From the NCBI RefSeq assembly GCF_014695725.1, contig NZ_JACJOU010000027.1:1-64000 (forward strand): a DNA stretch of 64,000 bases. Reading direction: 5' to 3'. Position 1 is the first letter of the stretch, and every line of letters begins with the position of its first letter. This document shows, piece after piece, positions 10,083 to 19,541 of the stretch. This DNA is from Microcoleus sp. FACHB-672. GTDB lineage: Bacteria > Cyanobacteriota > Cyanobacteriia > Cyanobacteriales > Oscillatoriaceae. The position numbers and the translations under genes were made by a program. The notes under the pieces were generated by a model. The model was not told the DNA's origin, searched no databases, and saw only the letters and a list, made by a program, of their open reading frames with translations.

Positions 10083-10246
10083 GTCGAAAGGTTAAAAGAT
10101 TTCGGCAATTTGTCATCCCGGTATTCTCGAACCTTGCTAAACTGGGTTGAGTTCCAGCCGATAGAAAATCAAGGTCGCATCACGATTGCGCCTCGATCCA
10201 TGCCATCAGGGTGCCAAATATCGCCGGCCTTTCTCTTCCTGAGTCA

Positions 10247-11911
10247 ATGAATTTATCACCAGCTCAAGACATCTCCCTCTACGAACTAGCCCTCAGCGCC
10301 CAGCAGCCGCCCCATGCCTTGCAAGTCAGTCCGGCGACGCTGAAATCTATGGTGGATGCGCTGATTGATTTGTTGCTTGACCGAGAGATACCGGCAACTC
10401 TGTTAGTGAAGCTACCGCGCGGGAATGCGTGGCAATCTGAGCTTGAGCGTTACCGGCAAAGTGGAGTTTGTCAGGGAATTTATGTCTGCAACCTTTCTGG
10501 GCGCAATGCAGCTAGTCTGACAGATGGAGATAATTCAGGGGAACTCGAATCGCCGCCAGCAAAGCAAAGACACTCGCGCCCGACATCTGAATTCCAGACA
10601 CACAGACAGTCTGCGCCAATCACTGACAGCGAGACATCTCTGATTCAGGATAAGGCGAGACAAAGTATACCGGCACCAGCAACCTCAACAAGTTTTGAAC
10701 TGAATGTGCCGGCTGAATCTTCTTTAAGACGGGAATATTTTATCTTTGTCCTCTCAGAGCAATTTTGTAGCTTGATCGTGGCCCATCGGCCTCGATCTAT
10801 CCGGCTGCCGGTGGAAGCCACAGAGACCAATTCTGAACGTAAACAACCACTTTTAGCAATTTGTTCCGCAGACGCACCGGCAGTTGAACACGTATTAGCC
10901 GGCTTACGACAGATCGTTGGCATTAGCCAGTCCAAAACCCTCCAAACGGATAAGTCAAGCGTAGGAACAATCCCTCAACAGCAAAGCCCCGCCTCGGCTT
11001 CTATAGCCACTGACGAACTCTTAAAAAATTGGAATTCCCTGTTTCTGCGTTTCCCCTCCTCTGACTTGACAAAAACTTCTTTGTTCGCATCTCATGCCGG
11101 TCACTTATGGGCCAAACAAATTCAGCAGCAAGAAGAAGTTTGGCGCAGTATCACCAACTACCGGCAGCACGCAGTCGATGCAGAAGCCTTGCAACTGCAA
11201 AACCAAGAGTTGCTGGAAGCAATGCACCTGAAAGACGAATTTCTCAGCAATGTGGGTCAGGCATTGCGGACACCCTTAACCAATATGAAAACCGCACTCA
11301 CCCTGCTGGGTTCCGCCAACCTCAAGCCGGCCCAGCGTGAGCGGTATATGCAACTGCTCAATACCGAGTGTGATCGCCAGACTTCGCTGATCAACGGTTT
11401 GCTAGAACTGGTGCGGCTCGATCATCTGGTAGATCACGCAGCCATGCAATCTTTGTATTTGGCGGAAATCGTGCCTGGGGTTGTCAGTACCTACCAGCCA
11501 CTAGCCCAAGAAAAAGGCGTGATGCTGGCTTACACAATCCCAGACAACTTGCCCCCCGTTTCCTGCTTGCGTCCCTGGCTGAAGCAGATCGCGATCAACT
11601 TGCTGCATAATGGCATCAAGTTTACCCCCACCGGCGGTCAAGTTTGGGTGCAGGCAAAGCAGCAGGGAGATTATATCCAATTAGAATTTCGCGACACCGG
11701 CATCGGCATTCCGGCTAGCGAACTTCACAAAATTTTTGAGCGATTCTATCGAGTTCGCCAAGCTGTTGATGACGATCCCGGCGGTGCCGGCTTAGGTTTA
11801 ACAATTGTGCAACAATTACTATTGCGCTGTGGTGGTTCAATTTCTGTTAAAAGCCAACTTGGTCAGGGTTCGACTTTTAACGTTTTGCTGCCGATTTATC
11901 ATAAAGAATAG
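10247..11911 (+). CDS. Histidine-kinase-like protein with intact ATPase domain but no phospho-acceptor histidine
   Basis: This 554-residue protein has an N-terminal sensory region (to about 270) that looks like a DICT-type domain (SLYELALSAQQPPHALQVSP, VKLPRGNAWQSELERYRQSG). A coiled region, a dimerisation helix and a full HATPase domain follow, with N-box NLLHNGIKFTP, G1 DTGIGIP, F-box FERFYR and G2 GGAGLGLTIV. In the H-box the expected S-H-E-L-R-T-P reads G-Q-A-L-R-T-P: the codon at 11258-11260 is CAG (Gln338), so the phospho-accepting histidine is absent. It is soluble, with no membrane segment. The frame extends to a GTG at 10211; the ATG at 10247 is preferred because it begins the domain, although neither has a good ribosome binding site. 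It faces another kinase-like gene, which keeps the histidine. Confidence 0.85.
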   Translation: MNLSPAQDISLYELALSAQQPPHALQVSPATLKSMVDALIDLLLDREIPATLLVKLPRGNAWQSELERYRQSGVCQGIYVCNLSGRNAASLTDGDNSGELESPPAKQRHSRPTSEFQTHRQSAPITDSETSLIQDKARQSIPAPATSTSFELNVPAESSLRREYFIFVLSEQFCSLIVAHRPRSIRLPVEATETNSERKQPLLAICSADAPAVEHVLAGLRQIVGISQSKTLQTDKSSVGTIPQQQSPASASIATDELLKNWNSLFLRFPSSDLTKTSLFASHAGHLWAKQIQQQEEVWRSITNYRQHAVDAEALQLQNQELLEAMHLKDEFLSNVGQALRTPLTNMKTALTLLGSANLKPAQRERYMQLLNTECDRQTSLINGLLELVRLDHLVDHAAMQSLYLAEIVPGVVSTYQPLAQEKGVMLAYTIPDNLPPVSCLRPWLKQIAINLLHNGIKFTPTGGQVWVQAKQQGDYIQLEFRDTGIGIPASELHKIFERFYRVRQAVDDDPGGAGLGLTIVQQLLLRCGGSISVKSQLGQGSTFNVLLPIYHKE

Positions 11912-11918
11912 GGGGATT

Positions 11919-11938
11919 GGGCATAGGGCATGGGGCAT
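11919..11938. repeat. STRR heptamer array (GGGCATA/GGGCATG)
   Basis: Two full heptamers and a partial one, of the form GGGCATR, lie in the 72-bp gap between the two convergent kinase genes. The same unit occurs in four copies at 48513-48540. Confidence 0.75.
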
Positions 11939-11983
11939 TTTTAGCCACTTTCTCAATCTTTTCCACTCAGCACTTAGCACTCC

Positions 11984-13738
11984 CTACTCCAGGGGAAGGA
12001 AAATCGTTAGAACTTCGCCTTGTTCAGGTTTTTGTCGCACGATTAGTTTTGCGCCTAGGGCTTGGAAGAGATTTTTTGTAACCGAGAGATTGAGTGTGAG
12101 ATTGCCGGTTTCTGGCTGAAATACCAACAATTGACCAATCGATTTCAGTGGTGAAGTTGAGGCATTTGCCGGCAATTTTTCGCTGCCGGTTTGACATTGC
12201 AACTGCACTTTTAATTGATCACCGGCTAGCATCACTTGCACTTCCACATGACCCCCTGCCGGCTGACTGGCGGTGAAATTTTCAATCACGCCGGTGAGTA
12301 CCTGATCCAACATTGTCGGATCGCTCACTACCGAAGGCATCTTCTGTGGCAAAACGACATCTAGGGTTAGATTGCGCCGGCTTGCCTGTTTTTGCCACCG
12401 GGGAATGCAACTGTCAAAAACTTGCGTCAGGGGAGTAGAGGTTAAATGAACCGGCGCTCGTTTGGTTTCAGAAGTTTCCAATTCCACAGCGCGGAAAATT
12501 AAACCAAAGCGATCAATCTGCTCGCTACACTCGCGATCAATCATTTCCAAACGCTTAATCACTTCTGGCTCTAAGTTCCGGCGTTTTAGCAGCAGGCGAG
12601 TTAAGGTGCGAATGGTTGCCAAAGGTGTGCGGACTTCATGGGCCATCGCTTGCAGCAATTCCACATCATAAGCTTGAGATCGCTCATTCGATGCCGTGCC
12701 GGTTCCACCAGCCAGATGCTCTAGACGCTGCTCAAGGGTTTCTCGATTTAAGTTTGTTTTCACTGCAGCCGGCCTCTTGGTACGCTCATTCACGCAACCG
12801 TCAGAGTCGGAATGGCTGCGATTAACATTGCGCGAACGCCAAGCCGATTTGCTGGATGCACCGGCTGCCTGTGGCGAGTCGTGGACTGCCGCCGATAACA
12901 AACGCACTGGGGCGTCTGAGCGACTGTTTTCCCACTCAACCGGCTCCGGCATATACTTCAGAAGCAGCCGGCTAAACTGCATCACAGTTTTGTAATCTGG
13001 AGCTGCCGGCGCAAACCGCTCAATGCAATTATCCAGCTGGCTTAGCTGGGCGGTACTGCCGGCGAGTAACACACGGGGACGTAGCGAATGCCAAGCTTGT
13101 GCAACCACTTCCGGGTCAAAAGAAAACTGAAAGGCCGGTTGCCCATTGCTATCTGTGCCCAGAACCATCACCAGGCTCAATTTGTGAGTTAATACCACAC
13201 AAAACTGTTCATCTGACAAGGGGTCATCTGAAAGCAAGGGAACCAGTGAGCGGGGCATAGAAGCCGGTGCGGTGCATCCTTCCGGGAGGGGCAGCAGGGG
13301 CATACTGTGCCGATTGCGTTCTCCCAGTAACCAAAGGGCTGGGTTGAGGGGATCGGAAGTGAATGTGCAAGACGCCACACGGGAAACAAGGGCTGGGTGA
13401 GTCAACACCGGCATCGGCCCGGATAAGATCAAGCCGTGTGAGGGGTCAAAATCTTGGGCATGGCTTTCTTCTTGGCCAACCGCAGGATATTTGAGGGTGG
13501 CCGGCACCGTTAAGGAAAATTGTTGTTGCAAAAGACAGTTAAGCGCGGCAACGGCACCACACCATTCCCGTTCCGCCTTGAGGCGTTGCTGAGCAGCCTC
13601 AGCGGCAGAACGGTGCCGGTTGCGATTTAAAGAGACATTGCCGACAACATCTCTACCACCCGCCACCGCTTCAAATCCACACTCTGCCTCGGCAAGGGAT
13701 AAAACCTCACTGAGGGCCGGTAAAAACCATTGATCCAT
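11984..13738 (-). CDS. Histidine-kinase-like protein with intact H-box but degenerate ATP-binding domain
   Basis: This 584-residue protein has a long N-terminal sensor region. One segment (EQFCVVLTHKLSLVMVLG) is also recognisable in the neighbouring kinase. A linker with many Ser/Arg residues is followed by a HisKA domain with a good H-box, MAHEVRTPLATIRT, where His367 is encoded at 12638-12640. The C-terminal part should be the HATPase domain but lacks its motifs: the N-box region reads VLTGVIENFTASQPAGG, there is no D-x-G-x-G box, no F-box and no G-x-G-L-G box. ATP binding is therefore doubtful. The frame opens at 13789, but AAGAGGG lies about nine bases before the ATG at 13738 (MDQWFLPAL), which is preferred. 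It is soluble and convergent with the preceding gene. Confidence 0.83.
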   Translation of the reverse strand: MDQWFLPALSEVLSLAEAECGFEAVAGGRDVVGNVSLNRNRHRSAAEAAQQRLKAEREWCGAVAALNCLLQQQFSLTVPATLKYPAVGQEESHAQDFDPSHGLILSGPMPVLTHPALVSRVASCTFTSDPLNPALWLLGERNRHSMPLLPLPEGCTAPASMPRSLVPLLSDDPLSDEQFCVVLTHKLSLVMVLGTDSNGQPAFQFSFDPEVVAQAWHSLRPRVLLAGSTAQLSQLDNCIERFAPAAPDYKTVMQFSRLLLKYMPEPVEWENSRSDAPVRLLSAAVHDSPQAAGASSKSAWRSRNVNRSHSDSDGCVNERTKRPAAVKTNLNRETLEQRLEHLAGGTGTASNERSQAYDVELLQAMAHEVRTPLATIRTLTRLLLKRRNLEPEVIKRLEMIDRECSEQIDRFGLIFRAVELETSETKRAPVHLTSTPLTQVFDSCIPRWQKQASRRNLTLDVVLPQKMPSVVSDPTMLDQVLTGVIENFTASQPAGGHVEVQVMLAGDQLKVQLQCQTGSEKLPANASTSPLKSIGQLLVFQPETGNLTLNLSVTKNLFQALGAKLIVRQKPEQGEVLTIFLPLE

Positions 13739-14005: not shown

Positions 14006-15406
14006 ATGTCTACTTTGCTAAATGACGCTAAAAATTTGCTATCAGACTTGATGGCTCGCTTCTCACCTCATGTGGATTATTTGGCGATTCGATTGGAGGA
14101 ATCTGAAGGCACTGATATTTTTTTGCGGGGAGAGAAGATCGAAACCCTCAGTGAAGGGGTGTCGATTGGGGGGCAAGTCCGGGCTTGCCATAAGGGTGGT
14201 TGGGGCTTTGCCAGCTTCAATCAGTTAGGGACGTTGGCAGAACGAATTGAGGAAGCGATCGCAGCCGCCCGGTTGGTGGGGGATGAAGAAACTCTGCTGG
14301 CGGAGGTGATGCCGGTGCAAGCGATTTGCCAACTGCCGATGACCGGCACTGATCCTCGCCGGATTTCTTTAACCCAAAAGAAAGCATTGTGCGATCACTA
14401 TGGGGAAATTCTTCGCAGTGTTGACCAGCGCATCACCACCACCTCTGTACGCTATAGCGATAGCGCCCAGAAAATCATCCTAGTGACCTCAGACGGCACA
14501 ATTTTGGAACAATCTTGGGTGGATATGGAAATGCGGTTTGCGGCCACTGCCAGAGCCGGCAGCACGGTGCAAACAGGCCGGGAAACGACGGGATCGCGCA
14601 AGGCTTATGAAGATATGACCACCCTAGACGCTCAAGTGCTTGGGGCGGCAGAACGGGCTGTGCAGGCGCTCTCTTTGCCGCCAGTGAAGGGAAATACTTA
14701 CACCGTGGTGATTGACCCGATTCTCAGTGGTTTATTTGTTCATGAGGCTTTTGGGCATTTGTCGGAAGCGGACATGACGTATGAGAATCCGGATTTGCTG
14801 GAGGTGATGACCTTGGGCCGCCGGTTTGGGCCAAAAGAGTTGCAAATTTTTGATGGTGCGGCTCCAGAAGGTCATCGCGGGAGTTACTTTTATGATGATG
14901 AAGGAACGCCGGCAAGCACAACCCAGCTCATTGAAGATGGGGTTTTAGTAGGCCGGTTGCACTCCCGCGAGACGGCTGGAAAGTTAGGAGAAGCAGCCAC
15001 CGGCAACGCTCGTTGTTTGAGTTATCACTACCCTCCCATTGTCCGCATGACTAATACCTGGATTGAGCGCGGCAATACTGCGGTGCCAGATTTGTTTACA
15101 GATATTCAAGAGGGTGTTTATGCCCGGAACTGGCTGGGAGGAATGACCAATGGGGAGATGTTTACCTTTAGTGCCGGTGAAGCGTGGATGATTCGCAATG
15201 GCGAATTAGCAGAGCCGGTGCGCGATGTAACGCTTTCTGGAAATGTGTTTACCACTTTGGCAGATATTGAAGCCATCGGGGATGATTTCTACTGGGATGA
15301 GTCCGGCGGTTGCGGCAAAGGCGGTCAAAGTGGCTTGTCAGTCGGCTGCGGCGGGCCAAGTTTGCGCCTCCGCAATGTTGTTGTCGGTGGGGATGCGGCT
15401 GAGTAA
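14006..15406 (+). CDS. tldD: TldD family metallopeptidase
   Basis: The 466-residue protein belongs to the TldD/PmbA (TldE) family, zinc peptidases that act as a heterodimer on unfolded peptides and in maturation of some modified peptides and toxins. The TldD-type zinc motif H-E-A-F-G-H is present in LFVHEAFGHLSEAD (around residues 246-259), so this is the catalytic TldD subunit and not the inactive TldE. Other family features are the N-terminal ASFNQLGTLAERIEEAI and the C-terminal glycine-rich GGCGKGGQSGLSVGCGGP. Length is normal (450-480). No tldE lies nearby; in cyanobacteria the two genes are often apart. The start ATG at 14006 follows a short upstream region shared with the divergent kinase-like gene. 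Confidence 0.93.
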   Translation: MSTLLNDAKNLLSDLMARFSPHVDYLAIRLEESEGTDIFLRGEKIETLSEGVSIGGQVRACHKGGWGFASFNQLGTLAERIEEAIAAARLVGDEETLLAEVMPVQAICQLPMTGTDPRRISLTQKKALCDHYGEILRSVDQRITTTSVRYSDSAQKIILVTSDGTILEQSWVDMEMRFAATARAGSTVQTGRETTGSRKAYEDMTTLDAQVLGAAERAVQALSLPPVKGNTYTVVIDPILSGLFVHEAFGHLSEADMTYENPDLLEVMTLGRRFGPKELQIFDGAAPEGHRGSYFYDDEGTPASTTQLIEDGVLVGRLHSRETAGKLGEAATGNARCLSYHYPPIVRMTNTWIERGNTAVPDLFTDIQEGVYARNWLGGMTNGEMFTFSAGEAWMIRNGELAEPVRDVTLSGNVFTTLADIEAIGDDFYWDESGGCGKGGQSGLSVGCGGPSLRLRNVVVGGDAAE

Positions 15407-16577: not shown

Positions 16578-19541
16578 TTAAACATAATCTAAAACCCACC
16601 GGCGAAACAGTTCCACAATGATCCGCCACCGGCTCTCCTTTTCCTCAACGACATCATGGCGTGTGAGAGTCTTGAGGGCTTCGCCTAATGTTGTTTCATC
16701 AATACCGGCAGTCTCAGCTAAAGCTTCTAGGCTCAACCCTTCCGGGTGAGGGGCGAGTGCTTTTAGGATTGCCTGCTGATGGACTGCACCCTGCGCGGCT
16801 TGACCCCAAACGCCCGTGAAGTAGTAGCGTCCTCGGCTAAAGAATTCAGGGTCAATAATCACCGTTTCCACATCATCTACGGTGAAAACAGGCTCACGGG
16901 GGCGTCCGATTTCAAATACTTGGTCGTTGTAGCGGCGAACGAGTCCGAATCCGATTAGCTGGACGAGATAAGGTTGGCCGGCAGTCAGTTCATAAATCAA
17001 ATCTAGCGCTTCTGGTTTGTAGCCGAGGGGGAAATCTTCATTTGGGTTAGCGAGGAGGTAGCCGGTTGCGGCAGGTTCCATGAAGCCAACTTTGATGGGG
17101 AGGACACTCGCAAAGAAGGGTTGGAAGTAATCTGCCGTCATTTCTTCGAGGGTATGAAGGCCGGCAAATGCAAAAGCAATTCGCGGACTCATTTGCACCA
17201 TCCCCCGCAGAACTCCCATAAAATCTTTAGGGATTTTGCCTGCTTCTATGAGTTCCTCAATTTTCTCGAATTCATCTAAGGCAATAATTAACCCGCCGTT
17301 TAGATTTGCCTCAACTTGTTTCAAATAGCGCTTAAACGTGGGATAGGGAAGATTGACCAACTCCTCATCCGCAGGGGGTGGGAGGTTGACCGTCTGAAAA
17401 ATTTCATCGCTAATTGCCATCAGCACTTCCCCAGCTCCCTGAGAGATATCTCCCAAATTTAACAGGTTGATGTAGGCCACTTTTACCCCAGATCCGAGAC
17501 GGCTTACCACATTCTTGAGGATAGAAGTTTTGCCCATCCGCCTATGACCGAAAAGAACGACAGACTGCAGTTGATTGCCCGATACCCACAATTCCTTTAG
17601 CTGTCTGAGGACATCCTCCCGTCCGGCAAAAAGCTGCCCATGCACTGGATCGCCCACAACATAAGGATTTCGGACAGGTTCAGTGATGGATATTTCCCCA
17701 ACTTCAGTAGCTTTCTTCTGTAGCAATTTTTGCAAATTTTTAGCTATGCTAAGGATTAGCCTTCGCTCTGCTTGAGGCAAGTGGTCGCCTGTGTCTAAAA
17801 TGCTTTTAAGCTCTCCTAACGCTTGGCTAAGAGCGAAAGAGCGGGTCGAGCGAGACACACTACGCCCAACAGCCCGGCAATCCTCAGCAACTCGACGTAA
17901 GCTAGCAATAGCTTTCCAAGTAACTGGACGTAGTAGCGGTTCCTGGGGAGGATCGGGCAATTCGATCAGCGCCAGAGCGTTTAGAAACTCAATGTTGTAA
18001 AAGGCTGTTAAAGTCTCAGATAAGGTTAATAGTTCGGCTCCGTAAGGGAGAGACCGCACAACAGCAAAAGCCTCGGCTGCTTTTGCTGGCTTGAATTTGT
18101 ATAAGTGCCAAAAACCAGCCGCCGCCGCGCGCGCCGGGGTGTCTACGCGGAGTTCTGTTAAAAGATGAGTCTGGATCTGCCACTTCCAGGAAGGCGGAAG
18201 TAGGAAGGAACCTTCCACAGCTTTTGACTTTATATTTTCATTCAAAGAAGCAGAGGCAAAATACACTAAGCCCCAATCATAGGGAGCTTCAGCCAGTTGA
18301 GTGACACGAAAGATAACTTGATCGGGGGGTGTTTCGGCCAGTAAGCAGTTAACTGCCTTGATAACAGGGATGAACTGAAGCGTATATTTCAGCAGTTGAT
18401 TGACATTATGCAACCCCTTTTCCCAATCCTGCCGTAGCCACTTTTTTAAATAGAAGGAGAGGTGAATTAGAGGAAGTGGGGTGATACGGGAAAATCGCCA
18501 GCATTCGTTCTGGGGTTGTAACAGCAAGAGCGGTAGATTCAAAAGCCAATTTTCAGGACGGAGTGTCGCCACGGCTAACGCCACGGCTAACGCCACGGCT
18601 AACGCCACGGCTAACGCCACGTCTAACGCCACGGCTAACGCCACGCCAAACCCCATGCTTATCACCCCCCCTGACAGTATGAACAGTATGAAATACACTA
18701 TCGCCGTTATGACCTCCGCCGTGTCGAACACCATGCTAAAGACCACGACTAACGCCATGCTAAAGGCCACGACTAACGCCATGCTAAAGACCACGCTCTT
18801 CGCCACCCCAAGCGCTACGCTAAAGGCTATGATCTCCGCCACGCCAAACGCCACGCCAAACGCAACGACTAACACCACGCAGTCCGACAGAACCTCCTTC
18901 GCGCCCCCCGCCACGCCAAACGCCACGCCTCCCGCCACAGCCTCCGCCACGCCCCCCGCCACGCCAAACGCCACGCCAAACGCCACGCCAAACATCACGC
19001 TTTTCGCCACGCCAAACGCCACGGCCTCCTTCACGCCCCCCGCCACGACTAAGGCCACGCCATCCGTCACGACTAAGGACACGCCCCCCGCCACACCAAA
19101 CGCCACGCCCCCCGCTATGCCTAAGGCCACGCCAAAGGCCACGCTCTTCGCCACGCCAAACGCCGCGCCAAACGCCGCCACGCCAAACGTCACACCTAAC
19201 GCCACCCCTAACGCCAAGGATGACCAAAGAACGGGGATGCCTATTTCTTGAAGTGCTAAACCCACAATTAATGGCGTTACAACAGTTAGCACTAACCCTT
19301 GTAAAAGCAAGTGAAGCAGGATGGGATTCTGGCGCAGCCACTCCCATCGCTTTTGCCACCTCATTTCGCCCTTGTGAACAAACTTATTCCCGAAGGTTCC
19401 CACATACCACTGCAACGCCTGGGGGAAGAAAAACACCCAGTACAGCAACCGCAGGTAATCTAGGAGATTCCACAACGAGAGGGGGCGTTTTAGTTTAGGA
19501 GCCAAATCTAACCGGGGAACGGGAGTTTGATCTTGGCTCAT
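16578..19541 (-). CDS. Membrane-repeat AAA/STAND-type ATPase, second gene of a coupled pair
   Basis: This 987-residue protein has three parts. Residues 1-100 include two hydrophobic segments. Residues about 100-330 are a low-complexity hydrophobic region made of tetrapeptide steps of the form G-V-A-F / G-V-A-G / A-L-A-V, probably several packed membrane helices. A helical middle part is followed by an ATPase from about 640, with Walker A VVLFGHRRMGKTSIL, Walker B GLIIALDEFE and a C-terminal winged-helix-like segment (LAETAGIDETTLGEALKTL...). This is the arrangement of Orc/STAND-like NTPases. Its ATG overlaps the stop of the upstream gene by four bases (ATGA, 19541-19538), so the two are translationally coupled. 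No known function; a membrane-tethered signalling or conflict protein is inferred from architecture. Confidence 0.82.
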   Translation of the reverse strand: MSQDQTPVPRLDLAPKLKRPLSLWNLLDYLRLLYWVFFFPQALQWYVGTFGNKFVHKGEMRWQKRWEWLRQNPILLHLLLQGLVLTVVTPLIVGLALQEIGIPVLWSSLALGVALGVTFGVAAFGAAFGVAKSVAFGVALGIAGGVAFGVAGGVSLVVTDGVALVVAGGVKEAVAFGVAKSVMFGVAFGVAFGVAGGVAEAVAGGVAFGVAGGAKEVLSDCVVLVVAFGVAFGVAEIIAFSVALGVAKSVVFSMALVVAFSMALVVVFSMVFDTAEVITAIVYFILFILSGGVISMGFGVALAVALDVALAVALAVALAVALAVATLRPENWLLNLPLLLLQPQNECWRFSRITPLPLIHLSFYLKKWLRQDWEKGLHNVNQLLKYTLQFIPVIKAVNCLLAETPPDQVIFRVTQLAEAPYDWGLVYFASASLNENIKSKAVEGSFLLPPSWKWQIQTHLLTELRVDTPARAAAAGFWHLYKFKPAKAAEAFAVVRSLPYGAELLTLSETLTAFYNIEFLNALALIELPDPPQEPLLRPVTWKAIASLRRVAEDCRAVGRSVSRSTRSFALSQALGELKSILDTGDHLPQAERRLILSIAKNLQKLLQKKATEVGEISITEPVRNPYVVGDPVHGQLFAGREDVLRQLKELWVSGNQLQSVVLFGHRRMGKTSILKNVVSRLGSGVKVAYINLLNLGDISQGAGEVLMAISDEIFQTVNLPPPADEELVNLPYPTFKRYLKQVEANLNGGLIIALDEFEKIEELIEAGKIPKDFMGVLRGMVQMSPRIAFAFAGLHTLEEMTADYFQPFFASVLPIKVGFMEPAATGYLLANPNEDFPLGYKPEALDLIYELTAGQPYLVQLIGFGLVRRYNDQVFEIGRPREPVFTVDDVETVIIDPEFFSRGRYYFTGVWGQAAQGAVHQQAILKALAPHPEGLSLEALAETAGIDETTLGEALKTLTRHDVVEEKESRWRIIVELFRRWVLDYV
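18568..19220. repeat. 12-bp tandem repeat and diverged copies inside the membrane-ATPase gene
   Basis: Seven near-identical 12-mers (gccacggctaac on the plus strand) run from 18568 to 18651, then more diverged units of the same period continue to about 19220, interrupted by unrelated DNA near 18650-18730. In the coding (minus) strand each unit gives a tetrapeptide such as A-L-A-V or G-V-A-F, so expansion or loss of units keeps the frame. Confidence 0.9.

Follow-up and report, generated by a model that had tools for sequence, protein, structure and literature searches.

Complementary losses in two convergent histidine-kinase-like genes of Microcoleus, one of them nearly universal in its cyanobacterial class

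In a 64,000-nucleotide stretch of DNA from the cyanobacterium Microcoleus sp. FACHB-672 (contig NZ_JACJOU010000027.1, positions 1 to 64,000; hereafter, the window), two convergent genes encode histidine-kinase-like proteins that have lost complementary parts. The product of gene A retains an intact ATP-binding (CA) domain and has no phospho-acceptor histidine in its dimerization and histidine phosphotransfer (DHp) domain. The product of gene B retains that histidine and has a degenerate CA domain. B is thus a HisKA protein with, to judge from its sequence, no usable ATP site, and it occurs in nearly every scanned genome of the window's class. We propose, with a probability of roughly 0.5, that B is an ATP-independent histidine phosphotransfer or phosphatase protein resembling ChpT or Spo0B, and that A is an accessory partner, able to bind ATP, by which B may be phosphorylated in trans or gated. 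Features of the region are collected in Table 1.

Table 1. Features of genes A and B and of the stretch between them (positions within the window)
Feature	Position	Strand	Basis
Gene A, DICT-HisKA-HATPase protein without phospho-acceptor histidine	10247..11911	+	Open reading frame (ORF) and Pfam
DICT sensor domain of A	10271..10789	+	Pfam PF10069, E 1.9e-30
DHp (HisKA) domain of A, H-box NVGQALRTPL	11231..11425	+	Pfam PF00512, E 1.5e-10
CAG (Gln) at the H-box histidine position of A	11258..11260	+	Codon reading
Intact ATP-binding (CA) domain of A	11573..11896	+	Pfam PF02518 (HATPase_c), E 1.2e-26
Intergenic stretch of 72 bp separating the convergent ends of A and B	11912..11983		ORF ends
Gene B, protein with a DICT-like sensor half, an intact histidine-bearing DHp and a degenerate CA domain	11984..13738	-	ORF, Pfam, predicted structure
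Degenerate CA domain of B, without G1, F and G2 boxes; conserved QPETG...L.L instead	11987..12322	-	Pfam, alignment, predicted Bergerat-like fold
DHp (HisKA) domain of B	12524..12661	-	Pfam PF00512, E 1.7e-7, exceeds cut-off
His367 codon of B, presumed phospho-acceptor, HExxT context, MAHEVRTPL	12638..12640	-	Codon reading and alignment
Segment of B (residues 158-227) homologous to the C-terminal half of the DICT domain of A	13058..13267	-	hhalign 95.5%, E 1.5e-8, 70 columns

A preliminary description of the region, made from the letters of the window, had noted a good H-box in B and the lack of G1, F and G2 boxes, and both observations extend far beyond the window. We aligned 122 B sequences, one per genome and including the window, fetched from 184 B-bearing genomes. 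Across these sequences, from genomes of 1.7 to 9.4 Mb, the HExxT motif is nearly invariant: His367 and Thr371 are present in all 122, and Glu368 in 120. In the C-terminal domain, a G1 string (DxGxG) appears in one of the 122 sequences and a G2 string (GxG[LMI]) in four. Where G2 would be, B instead has QPETG...L.L, in which P542, T544, G545 and L549, as well as G562 beyond, are each found in 122 of 122. The DHp domain is the best-conserved part (mean pairwise identity 0.657), followed by the CA-like domain (0.533), the DICT-like half (0.401) and the N-terminus (0.314).

Pfam matches tell the same story. In a survey of 83 B members, with matches counted at E values up to 0.1, HisKA (PF00512) is matched by every member and HATPase_c by 46; in the window B itself, the HATPase_c match (E 0.0055, 17.6 bits) is below the cut-off of 26.4 bits. 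B therefore has the histidine-bearing HisKA DHp domain of a histidine kinase, and lacks a HATPase_c domain with N, G1, F and G2 boxes.

The reverse is true of A. Its DICT, HisKA and HATPase_c domains all exceed the Pfam cut-offs, and in the window the N, G1 (DTGIGI), F and G2 (GAGLGL) boxes are all present; it is the acceptor that is absent. As the preliminary description stated, with frames and coordinates that proved right, glutamine stands in the histidine position. Among all A sequences found (46, one per genome and including the window), this position is Gln in 34, Arg in nine, Glu in two and His in one, so that it is not histidine in 45. The ATP-site residues are invariant in all 46: N467 in the N-box, D495, G497 and G499 in G1, F509 and F512 in the F-box, and G527 and G529 in G2. 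The phosphatase-motif Thr is kept in 28. The frame of A is already open from a GTG at position 10211; the ATG at 10247 is probably the true start, and is preferred because methionine is the commonest residue there (85%) in the alignment.

The complementary defects are therefore real and conserved, a conclusion that bears on whether both genes are simply decaying kinases. Motifs are indeed missing from each, the matched stretch of A contains one TGA in each of two genomes (G076 and G093), and an extra copy of B in another genome carries a TAG. Yet residues are invariant across the 122 B and 46 A sequences, and the frames are open across the class, which already contradicts decay; we regard this explanation as having a negligible chance of being correct. 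The TAG lies in frame in a second B copy in G336 (G336:C94:169124-169816), a genome whose intact copy is on another contig, C160.

The distribution of the two genes was determined by scanning 386 genomes drawn from the phylum, with B scored at E values up to 1e-20. B was found in 184 genomes, all of them inside the window's class according to kinship labels, where it is present in 184 of 186 genomes, those of 1.6 to 1.7 Mb included; the total for the class was judged from the order in which genomes without B are listed. The two genomes of the class without B are G085 and G241, in which a profile search gives nothing better than 1.3e-18; the same profile gives 3.5e-83 and 3.3e-76 in two B-bearing genomes searched for comparison. 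Outside the class, three genomes reach 4.1e-19 to 2.2e-16, similar to G085 and G241. In four genomes, the B profile finds a single standout B (4.3e-103 or better), and the best next match overall is 1.0e-22. A is present in 46 of the 386 genomes, which is also 46 of the 186 genomes of the class, and in a profile search a clean gap separates the weakest A (2.5e-134) from the next match (8.2e-61).

These counts speak against an idea put forward in the preliminary description, namely that the two proteins are obligate partners in a heterodimer in which A gives ATP, B gives the histidine, and neither works alone. The conserved complementary defects, the related sensor halves and the gene arrangement described below all suit such a dimer. 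However, 138 of the 184 B-bearing genomes have no A, and B keeps its histidine in all 79 A-less genomes that were aligned, just as it does in the 43 aligned genomes that carry A. Moreover, A and B were not found together in 27 of 46 assemblies, although nearby contig ends leave room for doubt in at least two of these. An obligate partnership is thus very improbable. A check of co-occurrence had been suggested at the same time: A is always accompanied by B (46 of 46), but because B is nearly universal, co-occurrence is uninformative about the pair.

A and B are arranged tail to tail in at least 19 of the 46 A-bearing genomes (18 plus the window), in nine families, with 3 bp to 3.3 kb between the frames. 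In the remaining 27, no B was found within the fetched A loci. The figure of 19 is a lower bound, because some of these loci are short, and contigs end near A in G008 and G133. Another 15 loci, from named contigs, have A close to B, in a tail-to-tail arrangement in 14 cases; these were kept out of the count because at least two, on contigs with lengths of 230,908 and 54,962, appear identical to contigs already included. By our own arithmetic, two single genes would be this close in about 0.1% of genomes by chance. In the window, no terminator-like match was found in the 72-bp stretch between the genes.

We next consider how the proteins might work; their anatomy, conservation, distribution and gene order are observed, whereas phosphorylation, dimerization, the direction in which phosphate moves and the partner regulator are inferred. 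B is best pictured as a near-core phosphotransfer protein built from a histidine kinase. Because its own CA domain has no ATP site, B must be loaded from elsewhere; the source could be a partner kinase that acts in trans, or a receiver domain that is itself phosphorylated. B would then pass phosphate to a response regulator, or take phosphate from one, as do ChpT and Spo0B, and its HExxT motif would also permit phosphatase action. That B works in one of these ways, whether by phosphotransfer of the ChpT or Spo0B kind or by phosphatase action within that pathway, seems to us reasonably probable.

A, for its part, can act only via another DHp domain, because it has no histidine and often no phosphatase-motif Thr. 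The most likely such domain is that of B. The two proteins would form a heterodimer or complex, not an obligate one, and A would phosphorylate or gate B there according to its own DICT sensor. Since B offers an acceptor without a donor site and A offers a donor site without an acceptor, phosphorylation of B by A is the simplest use of the pair. Such phosphorylation cannot be the basic job of B, given the conserved histidine in the A-less genomes, where some other kinase or receiver must supply B. That A acts directly on B is a suggestion to which we assign slightly less than even odds. Nature has thus provided, in this pair of kinase-like proteins whose losses complement each other, a test case for trans-phosphorylation.

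Alternatively, B might be mainly a phosphatase, or a sequestering brake on a core response regulator, and not a phosphotransferase. HExxT is the phosphatase motif in such a role, and B keeps it, with its Thr never replaced. However, phosphatase action often survives loss of the histidine, and the histidine of B is equally invariant, so we consider a predominantly phosphatase or brake function somewhat unlikely.

Another possibility is that the altered domain of B still binds ATP in a nonstandard manner and that B autophosphorylates. An AlphaFold model of B (mean pLDDT, the per-residue confidence, 78.9; pTM, the overall fold score, 0.52) contains DHp helices at residues 349-384 and 391-422, and its Bergerat-like domain is predicted at high confidence. 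This retained fold, the good conservation of the C-terminal domain, and the second Asn of the N-box (position 487), which is present in the window B and is Asn in 60 of the 122 sequences, are what might be expected of an ATP-binding domain. Set against them, the G1 and G2 motifs are absent from nearly all 122 sequences, and we believe autophosphorylation to be very unlikely.

Fold searches with the models gave match lists that span mainly residues 346-584 of B and 314-553 of A rather than the sensor halves. The DHp-CA part of B has two top matches: DivL (4q20_B), with Z 16.8, a root-mean-square deviation (rmsd) of 6.2 and 212 residues aligned, and RetS (7n0e_B), with Z 16.8, rmsd 3.8 and 190 aligned. 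Ordinary kinases score within 1 Z of these, and DivL, RetS, GacS and HK853 all have Z values of about 16 to 17. Neither ChpT nor Spo0B appears in the matches listed for the B model, a listing that excludes neither. The A model (mean pLDDT 81.3, pTM 0.60) matches HK853, WalK and DivL at Z values of about 23 (for DivL 4q20_B, Z 22.7, rmsd 5.8, 224 aligned), and is likewise tied with ordinary kinases. By sequence profile, the best solved relatives of B are ZraS (2e-19) and RetS (2.1e-16). All these matches show a common fold and not a function.

Several observations weigh against our proposal. First, one A that adjoins B, in G167 (locus L052), is the sole A with a histidine (H-box LCHELRTPL). Second, of the 27 loci in which A was found apart from B, 14 have murE just upstream of A (and 13 a glutaredoxin-like gene), so the closeness of A and B could be inherited from a murE neighborhood. 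In A-less genomes, murE can adjoin B directly, at a distance of 46 bp in L088, 91 bp in L093 and 116 bp in L086. Third, the ChpT family PF10090 (HPTransfase) is matched by only one of the 83 B members (E 0.062), which does not qualify B for that family. Fourth, among 179 B loci used for neighbor counts (in which some genomes may be counted twice), B has no fixed response-regulator neighbor: receiver-like frames within 3 kb occur in 18 loci and are scattered, and 12 of these loci have such a frame without a kinase core. No response regulator was found among 20 B neighbors named by using Pfam, comprising 10 genes of one picocyanobacterial-type locus and 10 cluster representatives, the latter taken from the 45 largest neighbor clusters of the 179 loci with the second largest left out. 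Finally, when 20 A-bearing and 16 A-less genomes of one family (f6) are compared, some columns of the B alignment differ, for example position 533 (p 7e-6, 229 tests, kinship ignored); about half of the top 12 such columns are in the lid loop and two are in the DHp hairpin loop. With kinship uncorrected, these differences say little either way.

The murE neighborhood is central to a different explanation for A, in which it is a pseudokinase, like DivL or RetS, that regulates some other histidine kinase and owes its place beside B to inherited synteny. Candidate kinases would be plentiful, as the window's genome has at least 150 HATPase matches among 190 first-look candidates, and DivL is one of the structural matches of A, on a par with ordinary kinases. 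Two facts speak against this explanation: the pairing of A with B recurs across nine families, and the complete set of ATP motifs in every A goes beyond the needs of a pure scaffold. A pseudokinase that acts elsewhere is, in our estimation, somewhat unlikely. The histidine in the A of G167 is perhaps a reversion, and would serve as a natural control.

Two loci of one family (L140:5945-7721 and L141:5479-7271, in G332 and G177) exhibit, on the same strand, B, then a short kinase-like frame, and then a receiver protein of 265 to 270 amino acids. This receiver protein is a lead to the partner of B.

Comparison with known systems shows how far the proposed roles have precedents. Spo0B, the phosphotransferase of Bacillus sporulation, has a degenerate kinase-like C-terminal domain. 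B differs from it in having a sensor half and a class-wide distribution, and no Spo0B family is among the 23 Pfam families matched by the 83 B members at E values up to 0.1. Mycobacterium tuberculosis HK1 and HK2 (Rv0600c and Rv0601c) carry an ATP part and a histidine part on two proteins, with phosphorylation in trans. They represent one split kinase, whereas A and B are two full-length proteins with complementary losses, and B is widespread without A. DivL of Caulobacter, in which Tyr replaces the histidine, resembles A in combining a DHp domain that lacks the histidine with a CA domain. A is unlike DivL in having Gln, Arg or Glu at this position, a DICT sensor, and a histidine-bearing neighbor without an ATP site.

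For Caulobacter ChpT, the available part of the published account (PMC3433190) describes a phosphate-carrying histidine, His33, an absence of autophosphorylation, and crystals in which no nucleotide was seen. As described there, ChpT is similar to B in that a DHp-like dimer with such a histidine is followed by a Bergerat-like domain at the C-terminus, and this domain was found to be free of ATP (PMC3433190). Unlike ChpT, B has a HisKA-type DHp domain according to Pfam and a DICT-like sensor half. Because B lacks the ATP site of histidine kinases and also falls outside the ChpT and Spo0B families, it may work like these proteins without belonging with them. A sensor kinase with a replaced histidine, as in A, has a precedent in the chloroplast sensor kinase CSK, whose H-box histidine is changed to Tyr in green algal forms and to Glu in plant forms, according to the accessible portion of its description (PMC2677595); CSK carries a putative GAF sensor, and Hik2 is its homologue, as stated in the sections available (PMC2677595, PMC4751278). 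A differs from CSK as a DICT protein that adjoins B.

The sensor halves of A and B are related. The preliminary description had claimed a similar segment in the two, and this claim was borne out at the level of profiles. A profile-profile comparison of the N-terminal parts gave 95.2% (E 2.7e-8), and a trimmed B profile gave 95.5% against A (E 1.5e-8 over 70 columns), while the best of 20 column-shuffled versions of the B profile reached 0.4% (E 0.17). The similarity is not seen in a plain BLASTP comparison of A with B, where the best sensor piece has an E value of 2.1 and the kinase parts are 23% identical (E 8e-14). The Pfam DICT family (PF10069), to which A belongs, has no match in the window B at E values up to 1 and is weakly matched by eight of the 83 B members (best 0.016). 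Given this weak or absent match and the profile link to A, the sensor half of B is DICT-related without being a recognized member of the family.

It had also been suggested, from the shared sensor segment, that the pair arose by duplication. A midpoint-rooted FastTree phylogeny of 77 kinase cores places A and B in separate clades, with weak support at the deeper nodes (0.568 around A); the tree neither proves nor excludes that A was duplicated from B. Another histidine kinase with a DICT domain, about 690 amino acids long and with an intact H-box (GHELRTPLSTIQV), was observed in four genomes, which are those in which DICT was found among six searched (loci G000:C2:74131-74490 (L390), L387, L392 and L393). 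This kinase is a candidate relative of A, and could equally be its source. In a tentative broader scenario, which we consider somewhat less likely than not, B would be a phosphorelay node of the ChpT or Spo0B type that evolved independently, from a DICT-type histidine kinase, and is now carried by nearly all cyanobacteria; part of the class would have wired into it a relative that bears ATP and lacks the histidine.

The smallest genomes illustrate why B could matter. In five genomes of 1.6 to 1.7 Mb, B is one of 4 to 5 HisKA proteins that exceed the cut-off and is not in the HATPase lists (E values up to 1); these genomes have 3 to 4 proteins with both HisKA and HATPase domains, as determined by matching positions by hand, and 5 to 6 receiver proteins. 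If B carries phosphate, then photosynthetic cells down to the smallest do not rely on simple kinase-regulator pairs alone, but also have a relay or else a phosphatase dedicated to the task. B would then be an undescribed phosphorelay component that kinase counts have missed or that has been miscalled an ordinary kinase. Five histidine kinases are counted in Prochlorococcus MED4 in the available parts of two reports (PMC2663038, PMC4751278); B may be one of these five. No description of A or B was found by title or abstract in the open-licence literature; one that uses a locus tag, or that appeared in a journal behind a subscription, may exist.

Cell-wall genes recur near B. Among the 179 loci, murE is downstream in 41 and rodA is directly upstream in 29, although a link of B to these genes is suggestive only. 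The picocyanobacterial order at L268 (4938-14927) is mrp-rodA-B-psaD-trpE-gshA-ppc; the B frame there overlaps the end of rodA, and the order mixes cell shape, photosystem I and metabolism.

In the window, a TldD-like gene (14006-15406, + strand; named by eye) diverges from B, and a relative is located upstream of B in nine of the 179 loci. Farther along (16578-19541, - strand), a protein of 987 amino acids, judged from its translation only, has a long series of GVAFGVA-like repeats as its N-terminal third, followed by a P-loop ATPase-like part (GHRRMGKTSIL).

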